DNA of 64,000 nt from Streptomyces sp. NK08204 (GTDB lineage: Bacteria > Actinomycetota > Actinomycetes > Streptomycetales > Streptomycetaceae), in NCBI RefSeq assembly GCF_020400585.1, contig NZ_JAINVF010000005.1, forward strand, positions 1 to 64,000, given 5' to 3'. Made by a program: the position numbers and the translations under genes. The number at the start of each line of letters is the position of its first letter. Position 1 is the stretch's first letter. The notes beneath the pieces were generated by a model that worked only from the letters and a program-made list of their open reading frames with translations, made no database searches and was not told the origin of the DNA. Shown here piece after piece: positions 37,051-49,169 of the stretch.

Positions 37051-38514
37051 CTAGCCCGCCAGGTCGGCTCCGAACTCGGTGTACTTGCCGGCGGGCAGAC
37101 CCAGCTTCGTCGGGCCGAAGCTCGTCGACGCCGTCGTGGAGTAGAGCGTGGACGAGGCGCCGGGCAGGAACCAGGCCGCGCCCTCGGGGTCGTTCTCCTG
37201 GGAGGCGACGGCCGTGAGGTCGGCGTGGCCGTCGTGGTTCACGTCGGAGGCGAGCAGGGCGTCACCGAAACCGTCGCCCGCCTCCTGGGTGCCGGGCACG
37301 CCGGGGCTGTCCTGGGTGAGGAACACCGGGCCGGTCGTGGTGAGGCCGGAGGCCGAGCCACGGAGCAGGGTGATCGCCCCGGCGGAGGCGCGGTAGTCGG
37401 AGTCGTCGCCGAAGCTCTCGCCCGGCGCGCCGACCGCGAGGTCGCGGTAGCCGTCCTTGTCGAAGTCCCCGATCGCCAGCGCCGCGCCGAAATCGTCGCC
37501 GTACTCGGAGGAGTCCGGGACGCCCGCGCTGCTCTGGCTGAGCGATACCCGGCGGGTGGTGCTCGGGCCGGACGAGGTGCCGTAGATGATGTGGATCTTG
37601 CCGCCGGTGGAGGCGGAGGGCTCGTTGTCCGGTTCCTCGGGGTTGCCGAGGACGATGTCGCCGTAGCCGTCCTTGTTCAGGTCGCCGATCGCGGCCGTCT
37701 CGGCGGTGCGCAGGGTCGCCGCCTTGCTGATGCCGTCGGAGGTGCCCTTGTAGTAGACGGCTGTGGCGAGGTGGTCGCCGCCCGGCTGCAGGCCGGTGAC
37801 GACCAGGTCGGCCTTGGTGTCGCCGCTGACCCGGCCGGCGGTGAGGACCGGCTTGTCCAGGCCCGGGGAGTACGAGGAGACGGGGCCCGTCGAGCCCGAC
37901 TTGGAGAACGGGCCCCGGATCAGCCGGACCCGCCACGCGGACGGGTTCTCGGTGTCGCTCTGCCCGGAGATCGCCAGGTCGGGCTTCCCGTCGCCGGTGA
38001 AGTCCGCCGCCGCGATGCTCAGGCCGAAGTAACTGCCGTACAGGGGCTGCGGGTTCTTCACGGTCGTACCGCCGGACAGGCCGCTGCCCGAACCCCACAG
38101 GATGACGACCATACCGGCGTCGTCGGCGCTGCCCACCTTCTCGTGCGGGGTACCGACGACGAGGTCGCTGTAGCCGTCGCGGTTGAGGTCGGCGGCGGCG
38201 AGGGGGGCGCCGAACCGGTCGTACGCCTCCGCGTCGCCGGGGACACCGGCGGTGTCCTGGCTGATCAACTGGTGCCTGGCCGGGTCCGGTCCGTTCGCGG
38301 TGCCGTAGACGACGGCCACCTGTCCGGCCCACGACCTGCCGTTCACCGTGGCGGCGGGGGCGGCGACCGCCACGTCCCGGTAGCCGTCACCGTTGAAGTC
38401 GCCCTGGAGCCCGGAAGGGGCGGCCGAGGCGGGGGTGGGGGACAGGACCACCGGGGTCAGGCTCGCGACGAGCAGGGCGGCGAGCGCGGTGCTGCCGCGC
38501 AGGGGGTGCTTCAC
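37051..38514 (-). CDS. Secreted FG-GAP repeat protein (copy 2)
   Basis: 487 aa. The signal peptide (VKHPLRGSTALAALLVASLT, cleavage near ASA-AP) is followed directly by blades with calcium loops DFNGDGYRD, DLNRDGYSD, DFTGDGKPD, DLNKDGYGD, DFDKDGYRD and DVNHDGHAD. The order and spacing match the 1723 and 38586 products, so all three are predicted seven-bladed propellers. The GTG at 38514 has GGAGAC 8 nt upstream. It lies tail to tail with the histidine kinase and just downstream of its paralogue; function unknown, extracellular. Confidence 0.9.
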   Translation of the reverse strand: MKHPLRGSTALAALLVASLTPVVLSPTPASAAPSGLQGDFNGDGYRDVAVAAPAATVNGRSWAGQVAVVYGTANGPDPARHQLISQDTAGVPGDAEAYDRFGAPLAAADLNRDGYSDLVVGTPHEKVGSADDAGMVVILWGSGSGLSGGTTVKNPQPLYGSYFGLSIAAADFTGDGKPDLAISGQSDTENPSAWRVRLIRGPFSKSGSTGPVSSYSPGLDKPVLTAGRVSGDTKADLVVTGLQPGGDHLATAVYYKGTSDGISKAATLRTAETAAIGDLNKDGYGDIVLGNPEEPDNEPSASTGGKIHIIYGTSSGPSTTRRVSLSQSSAGVPDSSEYGDDFGAALAIGDFDKDGYRDLAVGAPGESFGDDSDYRASAGAITLLRGSASGLTTTGPVFLTQDSPGVPGTQEAGDGFGDALLASDVNHDGHADLTAVASQENDPEGAAWFLPGASSTLYSTTASTSFGPTKLGLPAGKYTEFGADLAG

Positions 38515-38585
38515 GTGCGTGTCTCCAGTCGACGTTCTGGGAGGGAGGCCGGGGAGGGGTGAGGGAGGGGCGGCGGCGCAGGGGG

Positions 38586-39992
38586 TCAGTCCGGCAGTGC
38601 CGCACCGAAGTACGAGCGATCGCCCAGGCCCAGGGACTGCGTGGTGAGCAGGCTGGATCCGGTGCCGGTGGGGCCCGACGACGTGCCCGGCAGGATGTGG
38701 AGGCGGCCGGCCTCGGTGGCGGCGGCGACCAGTTCGGCCCGGCCGTCGCGGTTGAAGTCACGCAGCAGGACGGAGGCGCCGAACCAGGCGTCGTCCTCCT
38801 CGGCCGGGTCGCCCTCGACGCCCGGCGTGCCCACGTCGTACAGGCGGGAGCCGCGGCCGGTGAGGCCGCCGGTGCCGCCGCGCAGGACGGTGACCGCGCC
38901 GGCACGGAAGAGGCTGTCGCCGATCATCTCGCAGGGGATGCCCACCGCGAGGTCGGGGTAGCCGTCGCCGTTGGTGTCGGCGGCCGACAGGTCGTTCCCG
39001 AAGCGGTCGCCGGACTCGGGCGCGCCGGGGACGTCCGTGGTGGCCTGCGTGAACGTGGTGCCGGTGGTGCTGGGACCCTGGGCGGTGCCCTTGAAGACAC
39101 GGACGGCACCGCCCTTGCCCGCGGCGCCCATGCCGACGGCGAGGTCGCCGTAGCCGTCCTTGTCGAAGTCAGCGACCGTGGCGCTCGCGTTCATCAGGCC
39201 GGAGTTGCCGAGCAGACCGATCTTCCGCGGCGGCAGGGCGGGGCCGCCCGCGGCGCCGCGGTAGAACCAGGCGCGGTTGGTGGAGGTGTTGGAGTCGTAG
39301 CCGAGCACGGCGAAGTCGGCGGTGCCGTCCTTGGTGACCTTGCCGGAGACCACGAGGTCCGGCTTGATGTCCTCGCCGTCGATGGGGTCGAGGTTGGTGG
39401 CGGTGCCGTGCGAGCCGGACTTGGTGAACGGTCCGCGTACGAGGTAGACGTAGTCGCCCGTGATCGCGACGACGTCCTGCTTGCCGTCCGCCGTGAAGTC
39501 GCCCACCGCGACGTCCTGGGCGAAGCCGCAGTCCTTGCAGCCCGGGCTTCCGAAGGCGGTCCCGCTGGTCAGGCCGGAACTGGAGCCCCACAGGACGGTG
39601 AAGGTGCCGCGGTAGGCGCCGGCGTCCTCGCCGGGGGCGGTGACGACGAGGTCGCCGTAGCCGTCGTTGTTCATGTCCGCCGCGGTGACCTTCGTGCCGA
39701 AGAAGTCGTTCGTCTCCGCGGCGCCCGCGATGTACGGGGTGTTCTGCGTGATCAGCGAGCGCTTGGCGGGATCGGGGCCGTGGGCCGTGCCCCAGACGAC
39801 CACGACGGCACCGGCCTGCTTCTGACCGGCCACGGTGGCGGTGCGGTCGCCGAGGGCGAGGTCTCGGTAGCCGTCGCCGTTGAAGTCGTCCGCGTACTTC
39901 GCGGTGGCCGCGGTCGCCGGCGCGGCCACCGCCAGCGGCGTCAGGCCGGAGGCGAGCAGCACGGCGGTCAGCAGGCTGGTGCGCTTGCGCAA
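38586..39992 (-). CDS. Secreted FG-GAP repeat protein (copy 3)
   Basis: 468 aa with signal peptide LRKRTSLLTAVLLASGLTPL and cleavage near ATA-AT. Calcium loops are DFNGDGYRD, DMNNDGYGD, DFTADGKQD, DFDKDGYGD, DTNGDGYPD and DFNRDGRAE. I chose the TTG at 39992 because GGGAG sits 5 nt upstream and the neighbour paralogue shows the same leader wording; a GTG at 40004 has no ribosome-binding site. It forms a tandem pair with the gene at 37051, 71 bp apart. The extra cysteines PGCKDCGF in one blade are unusual in this group. Confidence 0.88.
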   Translation of the reverse strand: MRKRTSLLTAVLLASGLTPLAVAAPATAATAKYADDFNGDGYRDLALGDRTATVAGQKQAGAVVVVWGTAHGPDPAKRSLITQNTPYIAGAAETNDFFGTKVTAADMNNDGYGDLVVTAPGEDAGAYRGTFTVLWGSSSGLTSGTAFGSPGCKDCGFAQDVAVGDFTADGKQDVVAITGDYVYLVRGPFTKSGSHGTATNLDPIDGEDIKPDLVVSGKVTKDGTADFAVLGYDSNTSTNRAWFYRGAAGGPALPPRKIGLLGNSGLMNASATVADFDKDGYGDLAVGMGAAGKGGAVRVFKGTAQGPSTTGTTFTQATTDVPGAPESGDRFGNDLSAADTNGDGYPDLAVGIPCEMIGDSLFRAGAVTVLRGGTGGLTGRGSRLYDVGTPGVEGDPAEEDDAWFGASVLLRDFNRDGRAELVAAATEAGRLHILPGTSSGPTGTGSSLLTTQSLGLGDRSYFGAALPD

Positions 39993-40082
39993 GGTGTCTC
40001 CCACGGTCGGGGCGGATCCCGGGCGCCAGGTGGCGCTATCAGGAGACCTGCGGCAACAGGTAAACGTTGTACGTGAGTTCGG

Positions 40083-41481: not shown

Positions 41482-42318
41482 TCAGGCGTTGAGCACCCCC
41501 GTCGCCAGCAGGCCGAGCAGTCCCGCCCCGATGACGATGCGGTAGATCACGAAGGCGTTGAAGGAGTGCCGGGCGACGAACTTCAGCAGCCAGGCGATGG
41601 AGGCGTATGCGACGACGAAGGAGACCGCCGTGCCGACGGCGAGCGGCGCCGCGCCGACCCCGGCGCCCACGGCGTCCTTCAGCTCGTAGATGCCGGCGCC
41701 GGTCAGGGCCGGGATGCCGAGGAAGAAGGACAGGCGGGTGGCGGCGACCCGGTCGAGGTCGAGGACGAGCGCGGTCGACATGGTCGCGCCGGAGCGGGAG
41801 AAGCCGGGGAAGAGCAGTGCGAGGATCTGCGAGCAGCCGACCAGCATCGCGTCCTTGAAGGTCGTGTCGTCCTCGCCGCGCTTGTGCCGGCCCATCTGGT
41901 CGGCGCACCACATCACGGCCGAGCCGACGATCAGCGAGGCGGCGACCACCCACAAGGAGGCGAGCGGACCCTCGATCAGCGGCTTGGCGGCCAGCCCCAC
42001 GGCGACGATCGGGAGGGTGGCCCAGATGACCCACCAGGCGAACTTGTAGTCGTGGTGGTAGCGCTCCTCGCGGTCGGTCAGGCCGCGGAACCAGGCGGAG
42101 ACGATCCGCTTGATGTCCTTGAAGAAGTAGACCAGCACGGCGGCGATCGCACCGACCTGGATGACGGCGGTGAACCCGACGACGGACTCGTCGTCGACCG
42201 GAATGTCCATGAGCCCTTCGGCGATCTTGAGGTGGCCGGTGGAGGACACGGGGAGGAACTCGGTCACCCCCTCGACGACTCCTAGGACGACGGCCTGGCC
42301 GATGCTGATAGCGCTCAT
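41482..42318 (-). CDS. uppP: Undecaprenyl-diphosphatase UppP (BacA)
   Basis: 278 aa. It removes a phosphate from undecaprenyl diphosphate at the membrane, so the carrier lipid can be reused for wall polymers; it also gives bacitracin resistance. Family signatures are GVVEGVTEFLPVSSTGHLKI near the N-terminus and LFPGFSRSGATMSTAL in the centre, with about eight helices. Length is standard. It is divergent from blaI with two perfect palindromes between the two genes, suggesting repression by the BlaI-like protein, an unusual connection. Confidence 0.96.
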   Translation of the reverse strand: MSAISIGQAVVLGVVEGVTEFLPVSSTGHLKIAEGLMDIPVDDESVVGFTAVIQVGAIAAVLVYFFKDIKRIVSAWFRGLTDREERYHHDYKFAWWVIWATLPIVAVGLAAKPLIEGPLASLWVVAASLIVGSAVMWCADQMGRHKRGEDDTTFKDAMLVGCSQILALLFPGFSRSGATMSTALVLDLDRVAATRLSFFLGIPALTGAGIYELKDAVGAGVGAAPLAVGTAVSFVVAYASIAWLLKFVARHSFNAFVIYRIVIGAGLLGLLATGVLNA

Positions 42319-42350
42319 GGGCGTTCCAATGGCTACACTCGGGAGGAGAG

Positions 42351-42388
42351 CTTTTACACGGGCGTAAAAGTTCTACACGACTGTAGAA
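42351..42388. promoter_or_regulatory. Twin BlaI-type operators
   Basis: CTTTTAC-N6-GTAAAAG (42351-42370) and TTCTACA-N4-TGTAGAA (42371-42388) are two perfect 7-bp inverted repeats placed back to back. Both contain TAC...GTA, as in BlaI/MecI operators. They lie between the divergent uppP and blaI starts and are AT-rich against the background. Confidence 0.8.
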
Positions 42389-42414
42389 GACAGAGCGGGA
42401 GTACGACAAACGCC

Positions 42415-42804
42415 ATGGGAGCCGGCACACAAGGGCAGGCCTCGAAGCGGCCGAACGGCGCCCGCGAGACCGAGATCCTCGGCCTGCTGCAACAGGCCGA
42501 GGACGCGCTGACCCCGGGCGAGGTGGCCGAACGCCTCGGCGGCGAGCTGACGTACAGCAGCGTGGTCACGATCCTGACCCGCATGCACACCAAGGGCCTG
42601 CTCGACCGCGCCCCTCGCGGCCGGGCGTACGCCTACACGCCCGTCACCGACGACGCCGGCTTCGCCGCCCGCCGCATGCGCACCGTCCTGGACGAACGCC
42701 CCGACCGCGAGGCCGTACTGGCCCGCTTCGCCGACACCCTGTCCGACGCCGACGCCGACGTGCTGCGCCAGCTGCTCGGCCCCGAACCCGGCACCGGCCG
42801 GTAG
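42415..42804 (+). CDS. BlaI/MecI-family repressor
   Basis: 129 aa. The winged helix spans about residues 15-90: ETEILGLLQQAEDALTPGEV, AERLGGELTYSSVVTILTRM and KGLLDRAPRGRAYAYTPV. The C-terminal dimerisation helices follow (VLARFADTLSDADADVLRQL). In characterised systems a membrane M56 protease triggers loss of repression; the next gene encodes such a protease. The start ATG lies after the twin operators, so it probably represses itself and uppP. No beta-lactamase gene is nearby. Confidence 0.92.
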   Translation: MGAGTQGQASKRPNGARETEILGLLQQAEDALTPGEVAERLGGELTYSSVVTILTRMHTKGLLDRAPRGRAYAYTPVTDDAGFAARRMRTVLDERPDREAVLARFADTLSDADADVLRQLLGPEPGTGR

Positions 42805-42817
42805 CGGGGGCCGCGCG

Positions 42818-43798
42818 ATGCGCATCGCCGTCTACGTGCCGCTGCTGCTCTCGCTCCTCGCCCCGTTCGGCGCCCGCCCGCTCTCCGAGCGCTGCGACCC
42901 GCGCCTGGCGACCTGGCTGCTCACCGCCTCGTCCCTGGTGCTGGGCACCGCGAGCACGATCTCCCTCGGCCTGCTGGCCGTCACCGGTCTGATCCGCATC
43001 CCCCAACTCGCCGCCCTCGGGCAGTGGTCGGCCACTTCCGCGCAGCGGGACGCCCCCGCCCAGCTCTCCGTGTCCGTGCTTGCCGGGCTGCTGCTCGGCG
43101 GCGCCGTCGTCACCGCCGCCCGGCTGCTGTGGCGTCGCGCCCGCACACTGGCCACCGCCGCGCTGGACGCCGCCTGCATGCCCGCCCGCGACGGCCTGGT
43201 CGTCATCGAGGACGACGCCCCCGACGCCTACGCGCTGCCCGGTCTACCCGGCCGGGTCGTCGTCTCCACCGGCATGCTGCACACGCTGGACGAGAGCGAG
43301 CACGACATCCTGCTCGCCCACGAGCGCGCCCATCTGACAGCCCACCACTACGCGTTCGTCGCGCTCGCCCAGCTCGGCGCCGCCGCCAACCCGCTGCTGC
43401 GCCCGCTCGCCACCGCCGTGACCTACACGATCGAGCGCTGGGCCGACGAGCGGGCCGCCACCGCCACCGGCGACCGCGCCCGGGTCGCCCGCACGGTCGG
43501 CAAGGCCGCGCTCGCCGCGCACCGCACGCCCGCCCTCGCCCGCGCCGCCGCCGCGCTCGGCATCCGGGGCGGCGGCCCCCGCAGCCGGGGCCTGCTCACC
43601 AGGCCGGGCCGACGCAACGCCCTCGCCACCGCCGGGCCGGTCCCGCGCCGGGTCGCGGCCCTGCTCGCCCCGCCGCTCGGCCGGCGCCCCGCGCTGACGG
43701 CCGTGACCGTGGCGATCTGCGCGGTGGCGACCGTGGCCACGGCGGAAGCCGCGCACGACCTCCATGAGCTGCTGCTGAACGTCGGCGCCTGGAAGTGA
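42818..43798 (+). CDS. BlaR1/M56-family membrane metalloprotease
   Basis: 326 aa. Helices lie at about 3-20, 33-56, 85-100 and 280-305. The zinc motif is HERAH (residues 168-172), with ILLAHERAHLTAHHYAFVAL, and a later Glu in IERWADERAA. Only the protease module is present; there is no C-terminal penicillin-binding sensor as in BlaR1, so the signal is not a beta-lactam bound by that domain. It starts 13 nt after blaI and forms an operon with it. Confidence 0.9.
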   Translation: MRIAVYVPLLLSLLAPFGARPLSERCDPRLATWLLTASSLVLGTASTISLGLLAVTGLIRIPQLAALGQWSATSAQRDAPAQLSVSVLAGLLLGGAVVTAARLLWRRARTLATAALDAACMPARDGLVVIEDDAPDAYALPGLPGRVVVSTGMLHTLDESEHDILLAHERAHLTAHHYAFVALAQLGAAANPLLRPLATAVTYTIERWADERAATATGDRARVARTVGKAALAAHRTPALARAAAALGIRGGGPRSRGLLTRPGRRNALATAGPVPRRVAALLAPPLGRRPALTAVTVAICAVATVATAEAAHDLHELLLNVGAWK

Positions 43799-45888: not shown

Positions 45889-46761
45889 TCAGTGCGCCCG
45901 GCTGTGGCCGTTCACCGCGAGTTCGTAGTCGCCGATCAGGTAGCCGAGGAGGCTGCCGGAGGTGAGGTCGGAGGTGACGTGCCCGGCCATGTAGAGGCGC
46001 GAGTAGAGGATCTCGTCCTGCATCCGTGTGTACTCGGCGGTCCGCTCCGGGGCGAGCGCGCTGAGGAAGGTGACGGCCGCGGCGGCGCGGGCGGCGTGCC
46101 GGGAGGGGTAGGAGTACGGGCCCTTGGCACCGGGCTTGATGTGCTTCTCGGGGCGCAGGCCCGGGTCGAGCACGAAGGGCGCGGGCTGCTTGTCCTTGGC
46201 GGCCAGCTGGTCGCTGATCGTCTTGGCCAGCTTCAGGGCCGACTTCAGCTGGGCCTTCTCGGCCGCGCCCTGCTGGGCGGGGACCAGTTCGCGCTGGTCG
46301 TGGAGGTACAGCTTCCAGATGTCCTTCTTCCCGTACAGCTCCAGCCAGGTGGCGGCCTTCTTCCCCGCGGCGGTACGGGACTTGGCCAGCTGCTGGACCT
46401 GGTGGAGTTCGGCGGCGCGCTCCTTCGCCGTGGGCGGCGCGGGGAGCCGCCGGGCGGCCCAGGCGGCGAACGCCTTGTCGTCGCGGGCGGTGCCGTGCAC
46501 GGACGTCCACCGGGCGAAGAGGGCGTCGGCCTTCTTGCGCTGAGCGGCGGCCTGTCGGCCGATCGGCGCGATCTCGGCGTCGGTGAACAGCCCCGGCGGC
46601 GGGTTCTGCTGGATCCGCTCCGTCGCCCCGGGCTTCTTCTTCGCCGCGCTCGCGACGGCGGCCGGTTCCGTCTGCGGTCGCAGCAGACCGAAGGCGGCGG
46701 CCGTGACGGCGAGCACCGCGATCACGGCGTACGGCCATCTGACGGTGCGCAGGGCGTTCAT
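45889..46761 (-). CDS. PAP2-family phosphatase, exported
   Basis: 290 aa. An N-terminal hydrophobic helix (WPYAVIAVLAVTAAAFGLL) acts as signal or anchor; the rest is outside. The phosphatase motifs are KGPYSYPSRHAARAAAAVTF (motif with P-S-R-H) and SRLYMAGHVTSDLTSGSLLG (S-R-x-Y, H-x-x-x-D). It resembles vanadium haloperoxidase-type PAP2 proteins. It follows the VTC gene by 46 nt and forms the last gene of an operon with it. A phosphate-ester or polyphosphate substrate is plausible from that context. Confidence 0.87.
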   Translation of the reverse strand: MNALRTVRWPYAVIAVLAVTAAAFGLLRPQTEPAAVASAAKKKPGATERIQQNPPPGLFTDAEIAPIGRQAAAQRKKADALFARWTSVHGTARDDKAFAAWAARRLPAPPTAKERAAELHQVQQLAKSRTAAGKKAATWLELYGKKDIWKLYLHDQRELVPAQQGAAEKAQLKSALKLAKTISDQLAAKDKQPAPFVLDPGLRPEKHIKPGAKGPYSYPSRHAARAAAAVTFLSALAPERTAEYTRMQDEILYSRLYMAGHVTSDLTSGSLLGYLIGDYELAVNGHSRAH

Positions 46762-46807
46762 GCGGCGGGAGTCCTTTCGGGATGCGGGACGTCGAGGTGC
46801 GGTACGG

Positions 46808-47671
46808 CTACGCCTCGGCGGTGAAGTGCCTGCGGGCCAGGCGGCGTACGTCGTTGTCGGGCAGGCCGGGGGTGAGCAGCGACTGGCCGAGGATGTACTT
46901 GCTCAGGGAGACGGGCCGGCCGCCCAGGCCCAGCAGCAGCCGGTCGGCGGGGGCGGGGCGGGCGCCGCCCTTGGTCTCCACGAGGACGTGACCGGGGTCG
47001 AGGGCGGCGGTGCGGCCGGCCCGGTGGCAGGTGAGGTGGCCGTCGAGGGTGACGCGGGTGCCGTGGTCGAGGTCGGCGAGGGCCACGCGGACGTAGCGGA
47101 TCTCGGCGGCGGCGGTCAGGGCGGCGGCGGTGACCGGGACGCCGCAGGCGCGCAGGACGCCGTCGACGAACTCGCCCGCCCGGTCGTCGAGCCGGCCGTA
47201 TGTGTGAGCGGGGGCCTTGAGGGCGTGTTTGACGGTGGCGCCGCGGCCGTCCTTCGTCTTCACCTCCACCCGGCACAGCCCGTCCTCCGCGTACAGGCGG
47301 GTGCGGACCTTCCAGCGGCGGCGCCGCCCCTGGACGTGGGCGCGCCAAGCCGCCAGCTCCGGGGTGTCGAAGTACGTGCTGAGGTAGCTCGTCGTACGGC
47401 GTCCCACCAGGTCGAGGACCCGGTGGCTGTCGGCGAGAGCGGCCACGAAGGCGCGGGCACGGTCGAGGGGCAGCAGGTACTTGCGGTCGGTGCGGTGCTG
47501 GAGGGCGGCGGCGTCGTCGACCTCGGCGAGCGTGGCGCCGCGCAGCGCGGACAGGCCGAGCGAGGTGGCGAGGCCGGACGCGGAGGAGGTCGCTCCGTCC
47601 GGGGCGGGCGTCGCGACGGTGGCCCCGGGGCGGGTCGCCGGGACCGCCGGGAGGGACGGCACCGGCGTCAT
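46808..47671 (-). CDS. VTC-domain (polyphosphate polymerase-like) protein
   Basis: 287 aa. The tunnel-fold motifs of the yeast Vtc4 catalytic domain are seen: HRTDRKYLLPLDRA, YLSTYFDTPELAAW, RRRWKVRTRLY, CRVEVKTKDGRGATVKH, the LDGHLTCHRAG segment and HVLVETKGG, then SLSKYILG. Basic residues and the E-x-K pairs bind phosphate and metal in that family. Cytoplasmic, no helices. Its ATG overlaps the DUF4956 stop (ATGA). Bacterial VTC-DUF4956 pairs are common, but their product is not firmly known; polyphosphate synthesis is inferred. Confidence 0.88.
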   Translation of the reverse strand: MTPVPSLPAVPATRPGATVATPAPDGATSSASGLATSLGLSALRGATLAEVDDAAALQHRTDRKYLLPLDRARAFVAALADSHRVLDLVGRRTTSYLSTYFDTPELAAWRAHVQGRRRRWKVRTRLYAEDGLCRVEVKTKDGRGATVKHALKAPAHTYGRLDDRAGEFVDGVLRACGVPVTAAALTAAAEIRYVRVALADLDHGTRVTLDGHLTCHRAGRTAALDPGHVLVETKGGARPAPADRLLLGLGGRPVSLSKYILGQSLLTPGLPDNDVRRLARRHFTAEA

Positions 47672-48345
47672 GACACGGTCACCTGCTCGCGGGTCTCCGG
47701 GTCCGCCGGCCCCGGTTCCGCGGTGGTCATCGGCTCGGCGGAGGCGCCGGCCGGGTAGCGGGCGGAGACCTTGGTGGTCTCGCGGACGTAGTCGACCTCT
47801 TCCACCGCGACCGAGAGCGGGGCCTGGCCGAAGCGCAGGGCCACGTCCTGGGCGATCACCGAGGGGTCCGGGTAGACCCGGTCCAGGGTGAGCTTCACGG
47901 TCCGGGTCGGCGGCGGGTACGAGCGGGGGTCGTCCACCAGCAGCACCGCCACCAGCACGACGAGGTCCAGGGCGATGACGAGCCAGCTGTCGCGCTGCGG
48001 CAGCCCGTTGCACAGGGCGACGACCAGCGCGACGAAGGCGTAGGCGACGTCGCGCAGCGTGAAAGCGGCACTGCGCAGCCGGACCAGCGAAAGGATGCCG
48101 AACAGGCCGAAGCCGACGCCGGCCGGGAACTTGCCCGCACTGATCGTGCTCATGGCGGCGAACAGTCCGATGTTCAGTGCGGTCAGCACCAGCGGCATCG
48201 CCGGGGCGCTGGGACGGCGCCGGTGGAGCCCGCCGACCAGGACGAGCAGGGCGACGACATCGAGGGCGCCGCGCGTGGTGAGGTCCGTGGGGCCGATGTG
48301 GGCGGTGATGCCCTTGACGGCGAGCACCGATACCGCTGTGTGCAT
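47668..48345 (-). CDS. DUF4956 membrane protein
   Basis: 225 aa. Four hydrophobic helices occur at about residues 25-40, 50-70, 95-115 and 122-135, then a cytoplasmic ~85-residue domain. The segment FPAGVGFGLFGILSLVRLRS with the basic turn is the DUF4956 core. GAAGGGAC precedes the ATG at 48345. It leads the operon and is the probable membrane partner of the VTC protein, maybe exporting its polymer. Divergent from the two-component genes at 48498. Confidence 0.87.
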   Translation of the reverse strand: MHTAVSVLAVKGITAHIGPTDLTTRGALDVVALLVLVGGLHRRRPSAPAMPLVLTALNIGLFAAMSTISAGKFPAGVGFGLFGILSLVRLRSAAFTLRDVAYAFVALVVALCNGLPQRDSWLVIALDLVVLVAVLLVDDPRSYPPPTRTVKLTLDRVYPDPSVIAQDVALRFGQAPLSVAVEEVDYVRETTKVSARYPAGASAEPMTTAEPGPADPETREQVTVS

Positions 48346-48497
48346 GGCTGTCCCTTCCGTCACGGCATCTCGACGGCGGACCGGTCGCGGTCCGCGGAGC
48401 ACCGCGACACCAAGGAAGGTAGGGATGTCACATGAACAGACCATGAAGCCTTTCGGGCGACCGGGGATGTGCACGGCCCCGCATTAACCTCTCCGGT

Positions 48498-49169
48498 ATG
48501 CACTGCCTGGTCGTCGACGACGAGACCCGCCTGACCGATCTGGTGGTCCGCTACCTCACCGAGTCCGGTCACACCGCCGAGGGCCGCTACGACGGGCCCT
48601 CCGGGCTCGCCGCCGCCCGTGACCCGCGCCTGGACGCCGTACTCCTGGACGTGATGCTGCCGGGCCTGGACGGGGTCGAGGTGTGCCGGACGCTGCGCGG
48701 TGAGGGCATCGACGTGCCCGTGATCCTGCTGACCGCCCGTGGTGCGATCAGCGAACGTGTCGCCGGGCTGGACGCCGGGGCCGACGACTACGTCGTGAAG
48801 CCGTTCGCCATGGAGGAGCTGCTGGCCCGGCTGCGGGCGATCTCCCGGCGCCGCCCCGACCCCGCCGGCCGGCTGCGGGTCGGCGATCTGGTCCTGGACC
48901 CCGAGCAGCAGCGCGCCTGGCGGGCGGGCACGGAACTGGAGCTGTCGCGACGCGAGTTCGCCGTACTGCGCGTGCTGATGGAGAACGCGGGCCGTGTGGT
49001 GTCCCGGCTCCAGTTGCTGGACGAGGTGTGGGACGGCGAGGCCGACCTGCGCAGCAACGCCATCGACGTGCACGTGTCCAAGGTGCGCGCCAAAGCGGAC
49101 CGGGCGTTCGGCCGTACGACGATCACGACCCTGCGGGGCCGCGGCTACCGCCTGGAGACGACCCCGTGA
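48498..49169 (+). CDS. OmpR-family response regulator
   Basis: 223 aa. Receiver: LVVDDETRLTDLVVRYL, phosphorylated D51 in VLLDVMLPGLDGVEV, LLTARGA and DDYVVKPFAMEELLARL. DNA-binding winged helix: LELSRREFAVLRVLMENAGR, LLDEVWDG, and NAIDVHVSKVRAK. It begins 152 bp from the divergent DUF4956 gene and overlaps the kinase gene by 4 nt. It probably controls the DUF4956-VTC-PAP2 operon. Confidence 0.93.
   Translation: MHCLVVDDETRLTDLVVRYLTESGHTAEGRYDGPSGLAAARDPRLDAVLLDVMLPGLDGVEVCRTLRGEGIDVPVILLTARGAISERVAGLDAGADDYVVKPFAMEELLARLRAISRRRPDPAGRLRVGDLVLDPEQQRAWRAGTELELSRREFAVLRVLMENAGRVVSRLQLLDEVWDGEADLRSNAIDVHVSKVRAKADRAFGRTTITTLRGRGYRLETTP

Follow-up and report, generated by a model that had tools for sequence, protein, structure and literature searches.

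This analysis concerns a divergent gene arrangement in Streptomyces sp. NK08204 (contig NZ_JAINVF010000005.1), in which a gene for an undecaprenyl-diphosphate phosphatase (uppP) faces a gene pair encoding a BlaI/MecI-type repressor (blaI) and a membrane zinc protease (M56 in the following). The source genome comprises 7.65 Mb in 112 contigs, and the whole stretch of DNA that was analysed, here called the window, has a length of 64 kb and a GC content of 72%. uppP is encoded on the minus strand and blaI-M56 on the plus strand, with an intergenic gap of 96 bp between them. The features of the locus are the following.

41482-42318, minus strand: uppP, bacA-type undecaprenyl-diphosphate phosphatase (PF02673 BacA, 280.9 bits; NCBIfam equivalog NF001392, 385.8 bits)
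42331-42342, plus strand: conserved block TGGC-AnACTcgg (majority identity over 31 loci 91% on average, with several invariant columns)
42352-42369, no strand: candidate operator A, TTTTACACGGGCGTAAAA (arms 90% conserved over 31 loci)
42371-42388, no strand: candidate operator B, TTCTACACGACTGTAGAA (arms 89% conserved over 31 loci)
42415-42804, plus strand: blaI, BlaI/MecI-type repressor of 129 amino acids (Penicillinase_R, PF03965, 71.2 bits)
42724-42729, plus strand: codons R104-F105 of blaI, in the register of the scissile bond Asn101-Phe102 of S. aureus BlaI
42818-43798, plus strand: M56/M48-type membrane zinc protease of 326 amino acids, no sensor domain (HERAH at 168-172, E206)

The UppP of the window has the BacA domain and carries EGVTEFLP and PGFSRSG, which we take to be the catalytic motifs of this enzyme. 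In BlaI the winged-helix Penicillinase_R domain is found above the family cut-off of 22.6 bits, and its profile matches the M. tuberculosis structure 2g9w (presumably Rv1846c; best PDB match, E 1.3e-16), MecI (1okr) and the penicillinase repressor 1sd4, which we assume to be the S. aureus protein.

The intergenic gap contains two nearly abutting palindromes, A (CTTTTAC-N6-GTAAAAG, 42351-42370) and B (TTCTACA-N4-TGTAGAA, 42371-42388). Each has perfect arms of 7 bp around a centre unlike that of the other, so they are perfect yet interrupted, and both fit the pattern TTyTACA-N4-yGTArAA with a centre-to-centre distance of 19 bp. Two TACA-N4-(T/C)GTA dyads lie in the promoter region of blaI; they are conserved among relatives, and BlaI is predicted to bind there. 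A and B are the sole inverted repeats in the window with 7-bp arms, a spacer of 0-8 and at least five A/T per arm. Because 106 such repeats and four close pairs appear when the A/T condition is dropped, it is the A/T content which makes A and B distinctive. The consensus TTNTACANNNNTGTANAA with up to three mismatches gives three matches in the window versus 0.49 expected, a number reached by none of 100 shuffles, and none of 20,000 random 130-bp segments of the window (locus starts skipped) holds two sites at this threshold. In the whole genome A and B are the only matches to the motif with 0-1 mismatch; matches with two mismatches occur at four further places and are not above the reversed-pattern control (12 forward versus 6 in all). 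The exact motif is present in 50 out of 150 genomes of the same genus, the reversed control in two out of 150. A pattern for the tandem sites was found in four of 295 same-genus genomes; it was too strict and was set aside for estimating prevalence.

For the comparison of operators 31 loci were aligned, window included. Omitted were L095-L101 as well as L037-L045 (BlaI below 60%), the latter since several carry operators of another type. Both sites, with at most three mismatches each, are found in 28 of the 31 loci, 26 times at the 19-bp spacing and twice at 25 bp; a clear second site is missing in L029, L090 and L093. Majority identity amounts to 89-90% in the operator arms versus 61% upstream, 71% from the conserved block to A and 77% from B to blaI. 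The preliminary description, made from the letters of the window, was right in seeing two adjacent perfect palindromes between uppP and blaI-M56, and the check on orthologous loci that it had proposed came out in favour of their conservation. Immediately 5' of operator A, the block TGGC-AnACTcgg resembles, by its sequence, an extended -10 region of a putative blaI promoter. In the window it has one added base (T at 42334), where the other 30 loci show a gap.

Some loci show variants of these sites. Operator B is degenerate in L090, which retains A, and it is weak (three mismatches) in L016, a locus with a DedA remnant. L022 has an extra operator-like site, TTCTACACCCGTATAGAA, at L022:5455-5472, located 3' of M56 and before HicB-like and DUF4097 genes. 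BlaI relatives at 54-63% identity partly carry longer palindromes, for example TTCTATTCGCGAATAGAA inside a 38-bp perfect dyad of L099 (CCACAGTAACTTCTATTCGCGAATAGAAGTTACTGTGG, L099:4729-4766), which lies between a PAP2-uppP-DedA operon and the relative's gene. The 18-bp pattern TTCTANNCGCGNNTAGAA was found in five of the 150 genomes. The three uppP-bearing genomes in the 54-63% group (G147, G038, G028) have one copy each, and the sites in G019 and G034 fit the first motif equally well. Because the 54-63% relatives partly use other palindromes, the same target appears to be served by more than one type of operator.

The genes facing blaI were studied in 32 loci from Streptomyces, Planotetraspora, Actinacidiphila, Actinomadura and Embleya, which were found by BlaI similarity alone and without selecting for uppP. 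uppP faces blaI in 26 of them, and M56 follows blaI in the same direction in 31, the exception being L042. In total 28 loci hold uppP, DedA or PAP2, counting L039 and L041 which have PAP2 only, and 29 if the DedA remnant of L016 is included; a GT4 glycosyltransferase belongs to the facing operon in twelve. DedA is directly opposite to blaI in L015 (frame broken), L018, L031, L034 and L035, and PAP2 in L037, L039, L041, L044 and L045. Gene ends overlap in an operon-like manner for DedA and uppP in L034 and L035, and for PAP2 and uppP in L037, L044 and L045.

The assignment of the DedA proteins was checked in two ways. The VTT_dom profile is above its cut-off in all three proteins scanned (L034, L044, L106). 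For YghB, the accessible part of PMC10127716 names Glu39/Asp51 and Arg130/Arg136, and both spacings of this type are present in eight out of eleven DedA stretches (L018, L031, L034, L035, L044, L088, L101, L106). The misses are L015 (a 62-amino-acid piece of the broken frame, with LRGDS for LPGDS), L093 (a piece with only the basic motif) and L033 (neither). According to the same part of this source, COG0586-type DedA proteins are candidate flippases for undecaprenyl phosphate (UndP), which is formed by UppP (BacA) and perhaps also by PAP2 enzymes (PMC10127716). What unites these genes opposite to blaI is thus lipid-carrier recycling.

In addition, BlaI was searched in 150 genomes of the same genus, with at most 28 candidates scored per genome. 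The matches listed include eight with at least 73% identity (own included), seven with 54-63% and many with at most 52%; the statements on the first two groups refer to these listed matches. In the group of at least 73%, uppP is found beside the module in six of seven assessable loci. It faces blaI in the own locus, L088, L091, L093 and L094; L090 (L090:4450-8100) has no divergent uppP, and there M56 is followed by PAP2 and then by the gene of a distant UppP. L089 has GT4 only, and L092, which is cut by the contig (225 bp upstream on its contig), was excluded from the linkage count. In the 54-63% group uppP faces blaI in three of seven loci (L099, L100, L101), and L095 has PAP2. When the assessable non-paralogue loci are pooled, uppP is beside the module in nine of 14 (eight facing, one downstream) versus none of 26 paralogue loci (Fisher p = 7e-6, without correction for kinship). 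These paralogue controls were picked from the high-scoring rows at no more than 52% identity, some being passed over, and therefore they are not a random draw.

The 26 paralogue loci comprise 17 with TerB or Spo0M and three with DedA or PAP2 (L106, L116, L119). The paralogous clade near TerB/Spo0M includes L103, L104, L107, L108, L114, L117 and L120 among others, and a site of the type TTCTACA-N4-TGTAGAA is often found directly upstream of TerB or Spo0M. The TerB/Spo0M loci represent another class of targets for BlaI-M56 modules that lack a sensor.

A quick tree of 67 M56 proteins with midpoint root, in which L016 was counted as an UndP locus on its DedA remnant, places the module in one clade of 41 rows (SH-aLRT, the Shimodaira-Hasegawa-like approximate likelihood ratio test, 97). 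In this clade an UndP gene stands beside 37 of the 40 assessable rows and GT4 alone beside three, with one row unassessable. UndP genes also appear at two further places of the tree, namely L106 together with one L101 module, and L116 with L119. L044, L045 and L099 are not independent, because their M56 proteins are identical. Two arrangements stand out in these loci: L101 (L101:1628-6228) contains two consecutive BlaI-M56 modules, the first opposite to DedA and the second opposite to uppP, and in L106 (L106:4990-7000) a distant BlaI paralogue lies opposite to DedA and PAP2, again with two tandem boxes.

The genome of the window has a second uppP (G000:C69:204060-204833), 93% identical and downstream of two genes which we would name crcB-like. 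All nine genomes with a uppP-bearing module hold two or three UppP genes. Of the 18 genomes that lack a BlaI with at least 54% identity, 13 have one uppP and five have two (a third match in G118 is a fragment below the cut-off). Other genomes searched were G080 with a GT4-only locus (one uppP), G009 with a PAP2 locus (two) and G014 (five matches, two of them possibly pieces), where the locus is cut by the contig. Because all nine genomes with such a module carry a further uppP, the BlaI-linked gene looks, as judged from gene content, like an inducible extra copy.

The protease has an intact HExxH...E zinc site, with H168, E169, H172 and E206 unchanged in all 31 rows. It reaches 46.2 bits with Peptidase_M48, above the cut-off of 20.3, and 18.1 bits with Peptidase_M56, below the cut-off of 31; at E 0.01 M48 matches all 31 protease members and M56 matches 28. 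The predicted model is helical (pLDDT, the predicted local distance difference test, 85.6). In a second structural comparison its best match is S. aureus BlaR1, residues 3-303 (Z 10.2, 207 residues, root mean square deviation 4.7), a Z value in the range below about 13 which, according to the tool, can mean a mere common arrangement in helical proteins. Next come enzymes of the M48 family, among them BepA (Z 8.6) and ZMPSTE24 (Z 8.4). The protein stops at 326 amino acids without a penicillin-binding sensor domain, as the preliminary description had noticed, and 26 M56 relatives likewise end at 310-344; S. aureus BlaR1, in the accessible part of its description, runs to residue 585. In BlaI, F105 is invariant in 22 of 22 aligned rows and aligns with a Phe of 1sd4. 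The scissile bond of S. aureus BlaI is Asn101-Phe102 according to the accessible part of PMC9834060. F105 is in register with the P1' residue Phe102 but the P1 residue in the window is Arg, and cleavage at this position is predicted.

On the strength of these comparisons we consider it quite probable that the locus is an inducible accessory operon for lipid-carrier recycling, an autoregulated divergon under BlaI/M56 control. BlaI dimers would occupy operators A and B, which stand in tandem, and in this way blaI-M56 would be repressed together with the divergently oriented accessory uppP. An envelope signal would activate the membrane protease M56, which would cut within the C-terminal half of BlaI, close to R104-F105. 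The derepression would give added capacity for the conversion of undecaprenyl diphosphate (UndPP) to UndP, and in relatives DedA would flip UndP back. The most economical candidate for the signal would be a lipid carrier that is depleted or blocked, as by bacitracin or UndP-binding lipopeptides. We infer the binding of BlaI at A and B, the repression of uppP, the cleavage of BlaI by M56 and the nature of the signal; the zinc site, the BlaR1-like model and the Phe register each speak for a part of the cleavage step. The preliminary description had likewise proposed that BlaI/M56 is wired to lipid-carrier recycling. By comparison this link is strongly favoured by the conserved tandem operators, the recurrent adjacency of uppP and the exchange or addition of DedA and PAP2, with the control of uppP itself as the presumed step.

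Several observations weigh against this proposal. uppP is absent from six of the 32 loci: L016 has the DedA remnant, L025 and L027 a GT4 glycosyltransferase and L039 and L041 PAP2 on the facing side, and in L043 nothing was recognised. In L096-L098 of the 54-63% group, uppP and M56 are both missing from the neighbourhood. We rejected a general equation of the motif with lipid-carrier control, since elsewhere in the genus many sites are found at paralogous BlaI-M56 modules near TerB/Spo0M genes. Because those modules share the same 18-bp motif, the motif alone is no sign of lipid-carrier control. Inspection by eye found no convincing uppP promoter overlapping the operators, and the case for repression of uppP through A and B is therefore a geometric one, based on the 33 bp from operator A to the uppP start codon in the window. 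For the protease the caution on the BlaR1 match has to be added, as well as the fact that Foldseek with the protease model gave no match at E < 0.001. The uppP-facing blaI of L042 and L100 has no recognised M56 gene nearby, so that not every locus depends on M56; the repressor released by a protease, another claim of the preliminary description, has the zinc site, the BlaR1-like model and the Phe register in its favour and these two loci against it.

The signal is the weakest part. The preliminary description had named bacitracin or cell-wall stress rather than beta-lactams. The absent sensor domain argues against direct beta-lactam sensing, without pointing to bacitracin. For SCO7047, the bacA homologue of S. 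coelicolor, the accessible part of PMC3123327 reports no significant effect of bacitracin, vancomycin or moenomycin, which also counts against our proposal; SCO7047 may be a copy without a BlaI link.

The promoter question leads to a different explanation, in which the palindromes steer blaI-M56 alone by autoregulation, and uppP and its alternates travel along as a cassette with a promoter of their own. The -10-like block points toward blaI with the operators just downstream, a position which suits blocking of blaI alone, and no uppP promoter was recognised. Moreover, the paralogue L107 has a motif-like site upstream of blaI and none of the searched genes opposite (other genes were not looked for), and the BlaI proteins of the Planotetraspora loci L018 and L019 are 76-78% identical to that of the window, which suggests transfer as a block. 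However, uppP, DedA and PAP2 are retained or swapped at the same divergent site, across the operators from blaI, the tandem boxes recur between blaI and a DedA-PAP2 operon on the distant M56 branch of L106, and the distance from operator A to the uppP start is short. We therefore regard control of blaI-M56 alone as unlikely.

A switch for beta-lactam or general peptidoglycan stress, in which M56 senses via a partner protein and the extra UppP is one output among others, is given a similarly low probability. To our knowledge the M56 partner in M. tuberculosis is sensor-less, too. Mycobacterial BlaI is linked to blaC and division genes in the accessible part of PMC12565901; the scan of the own genome, however, gave no second target of the motif at 0-1 mismatch, genes for beta-lactamases or penicillin-binding proteins not having been looked for around the 32 loci.

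It is also conceivable, though we would put little weight on it, that the polyprenyl carrier is recognised directly by the sensor-less M56, which would act as its receptor by binding UndPP or UndP in the membrane and would cut BlaI once the carrier is depleted or trapped. This would close a feedback loop on carrier recycling without a dedicated sensor domain. Ste24/ZMPSTE24, a relative of M56, handles prenylated substrates in a membrane cavity. Finally, that the protease is a quality-control enzyme of the M48 type and no BlaI-cleaving transducer, with BlaI responding to something else, would suit the M48 and M56 profile scores and the M56-less loci L042 and L100, but it is rather improbable in view of the co-directional blaI-M56 pair in 31 of 32 loci, BlaR1 as best match in the second structural comparison and the invariant Phe at the cleavage register.

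With staphylococcal BlaI/BlaR1 and MecI/MecR1 the inducible divergon proposed here would share a repressor with a membrane gluzincin protease, a Phe at the cleavage register and, as far as the model with its Z of 10.2 indicates, a BlaR1-like fold of the membrane-protease part. The staphylococcal bla and mec systems are likewise divergons with palindromic operators. In contrast to BlaR1 and MecR1 the protease here has no penicillin-binding sensor domain, the presumed target is a phosphatase of the lipid carrier where the staphylococcal systems control a beta-lactamase or PBP2a, and the TACA/TGTA half-sites are 4 bp apart, compared with presumably 2 bp in the staphylococcal operators. Inducible UndPP phosphatases as resistance output are also known from BcrR/BcrABD of Enterococcus and from bacitracin modules of the BceRS type, which use membrane one-component or two-component sensors and are not known to involve BlaI/M56. 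The bcrC gene of Bacillus subtilis, too, encodes an accessory UndPP phosphatase regulated under envelope stress; its control is by extracytoplasmic function (ECF) sigma factors, whereas here it would be by repressor and protease. M. tuberculosis BlaI (Rv1846c) is, like that of the window, an actinobacterial BlaI, and among PDB entries the profile matches 2g9w best. The reported targets of the M. tuberculosis BlaI include blaC and the ATP-synthase-linked Rv1303, and there is no uppP among those named in the accessible part of PMC12565901. Among open-licence papers, judged by title or the beginning of the abstract, we found no description of BlaI/M56 control of uppP, and PMC8265638 contained no mention of the motif or of BlaR. 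This is a known kind of switch with no sensor domain, a new target and a wider operator spacing, the compared spacing being the presumed one.

Two further regions of the window contain noteworthy genes. A PAP2-superfamily protein is encoded beside a gene pair for VTC-domain and DUF4956 proteins (45889-48474), followed by a two-component-like pair starting at 48498; no site of the operator motif was found at 45889-48474. Two adjoining proteins at 37051-40004 contain repeated DxNxDGxxD-like motifs, which we take to be FG-GAP-like.

Little is understood about the way in which bacteria perceive and regulate their small undecaprenyl phosphate pool, and flippases of the DedA type have been assigned only recently. 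The evidence suggests an undescribed cell-wall-stress switch in Streptomyces and relatives. If this is true, a dedicated repressor-protease switch on phosphatase and flippase genes of antibiotic producers would offer a direct handle on carrier sensing and a candidate route to self-protection against bacitracin or lipopeptides. BlaI/M56 modules would then be general envelope-stress switches, of which the beta-lactam role would be one specialisation.

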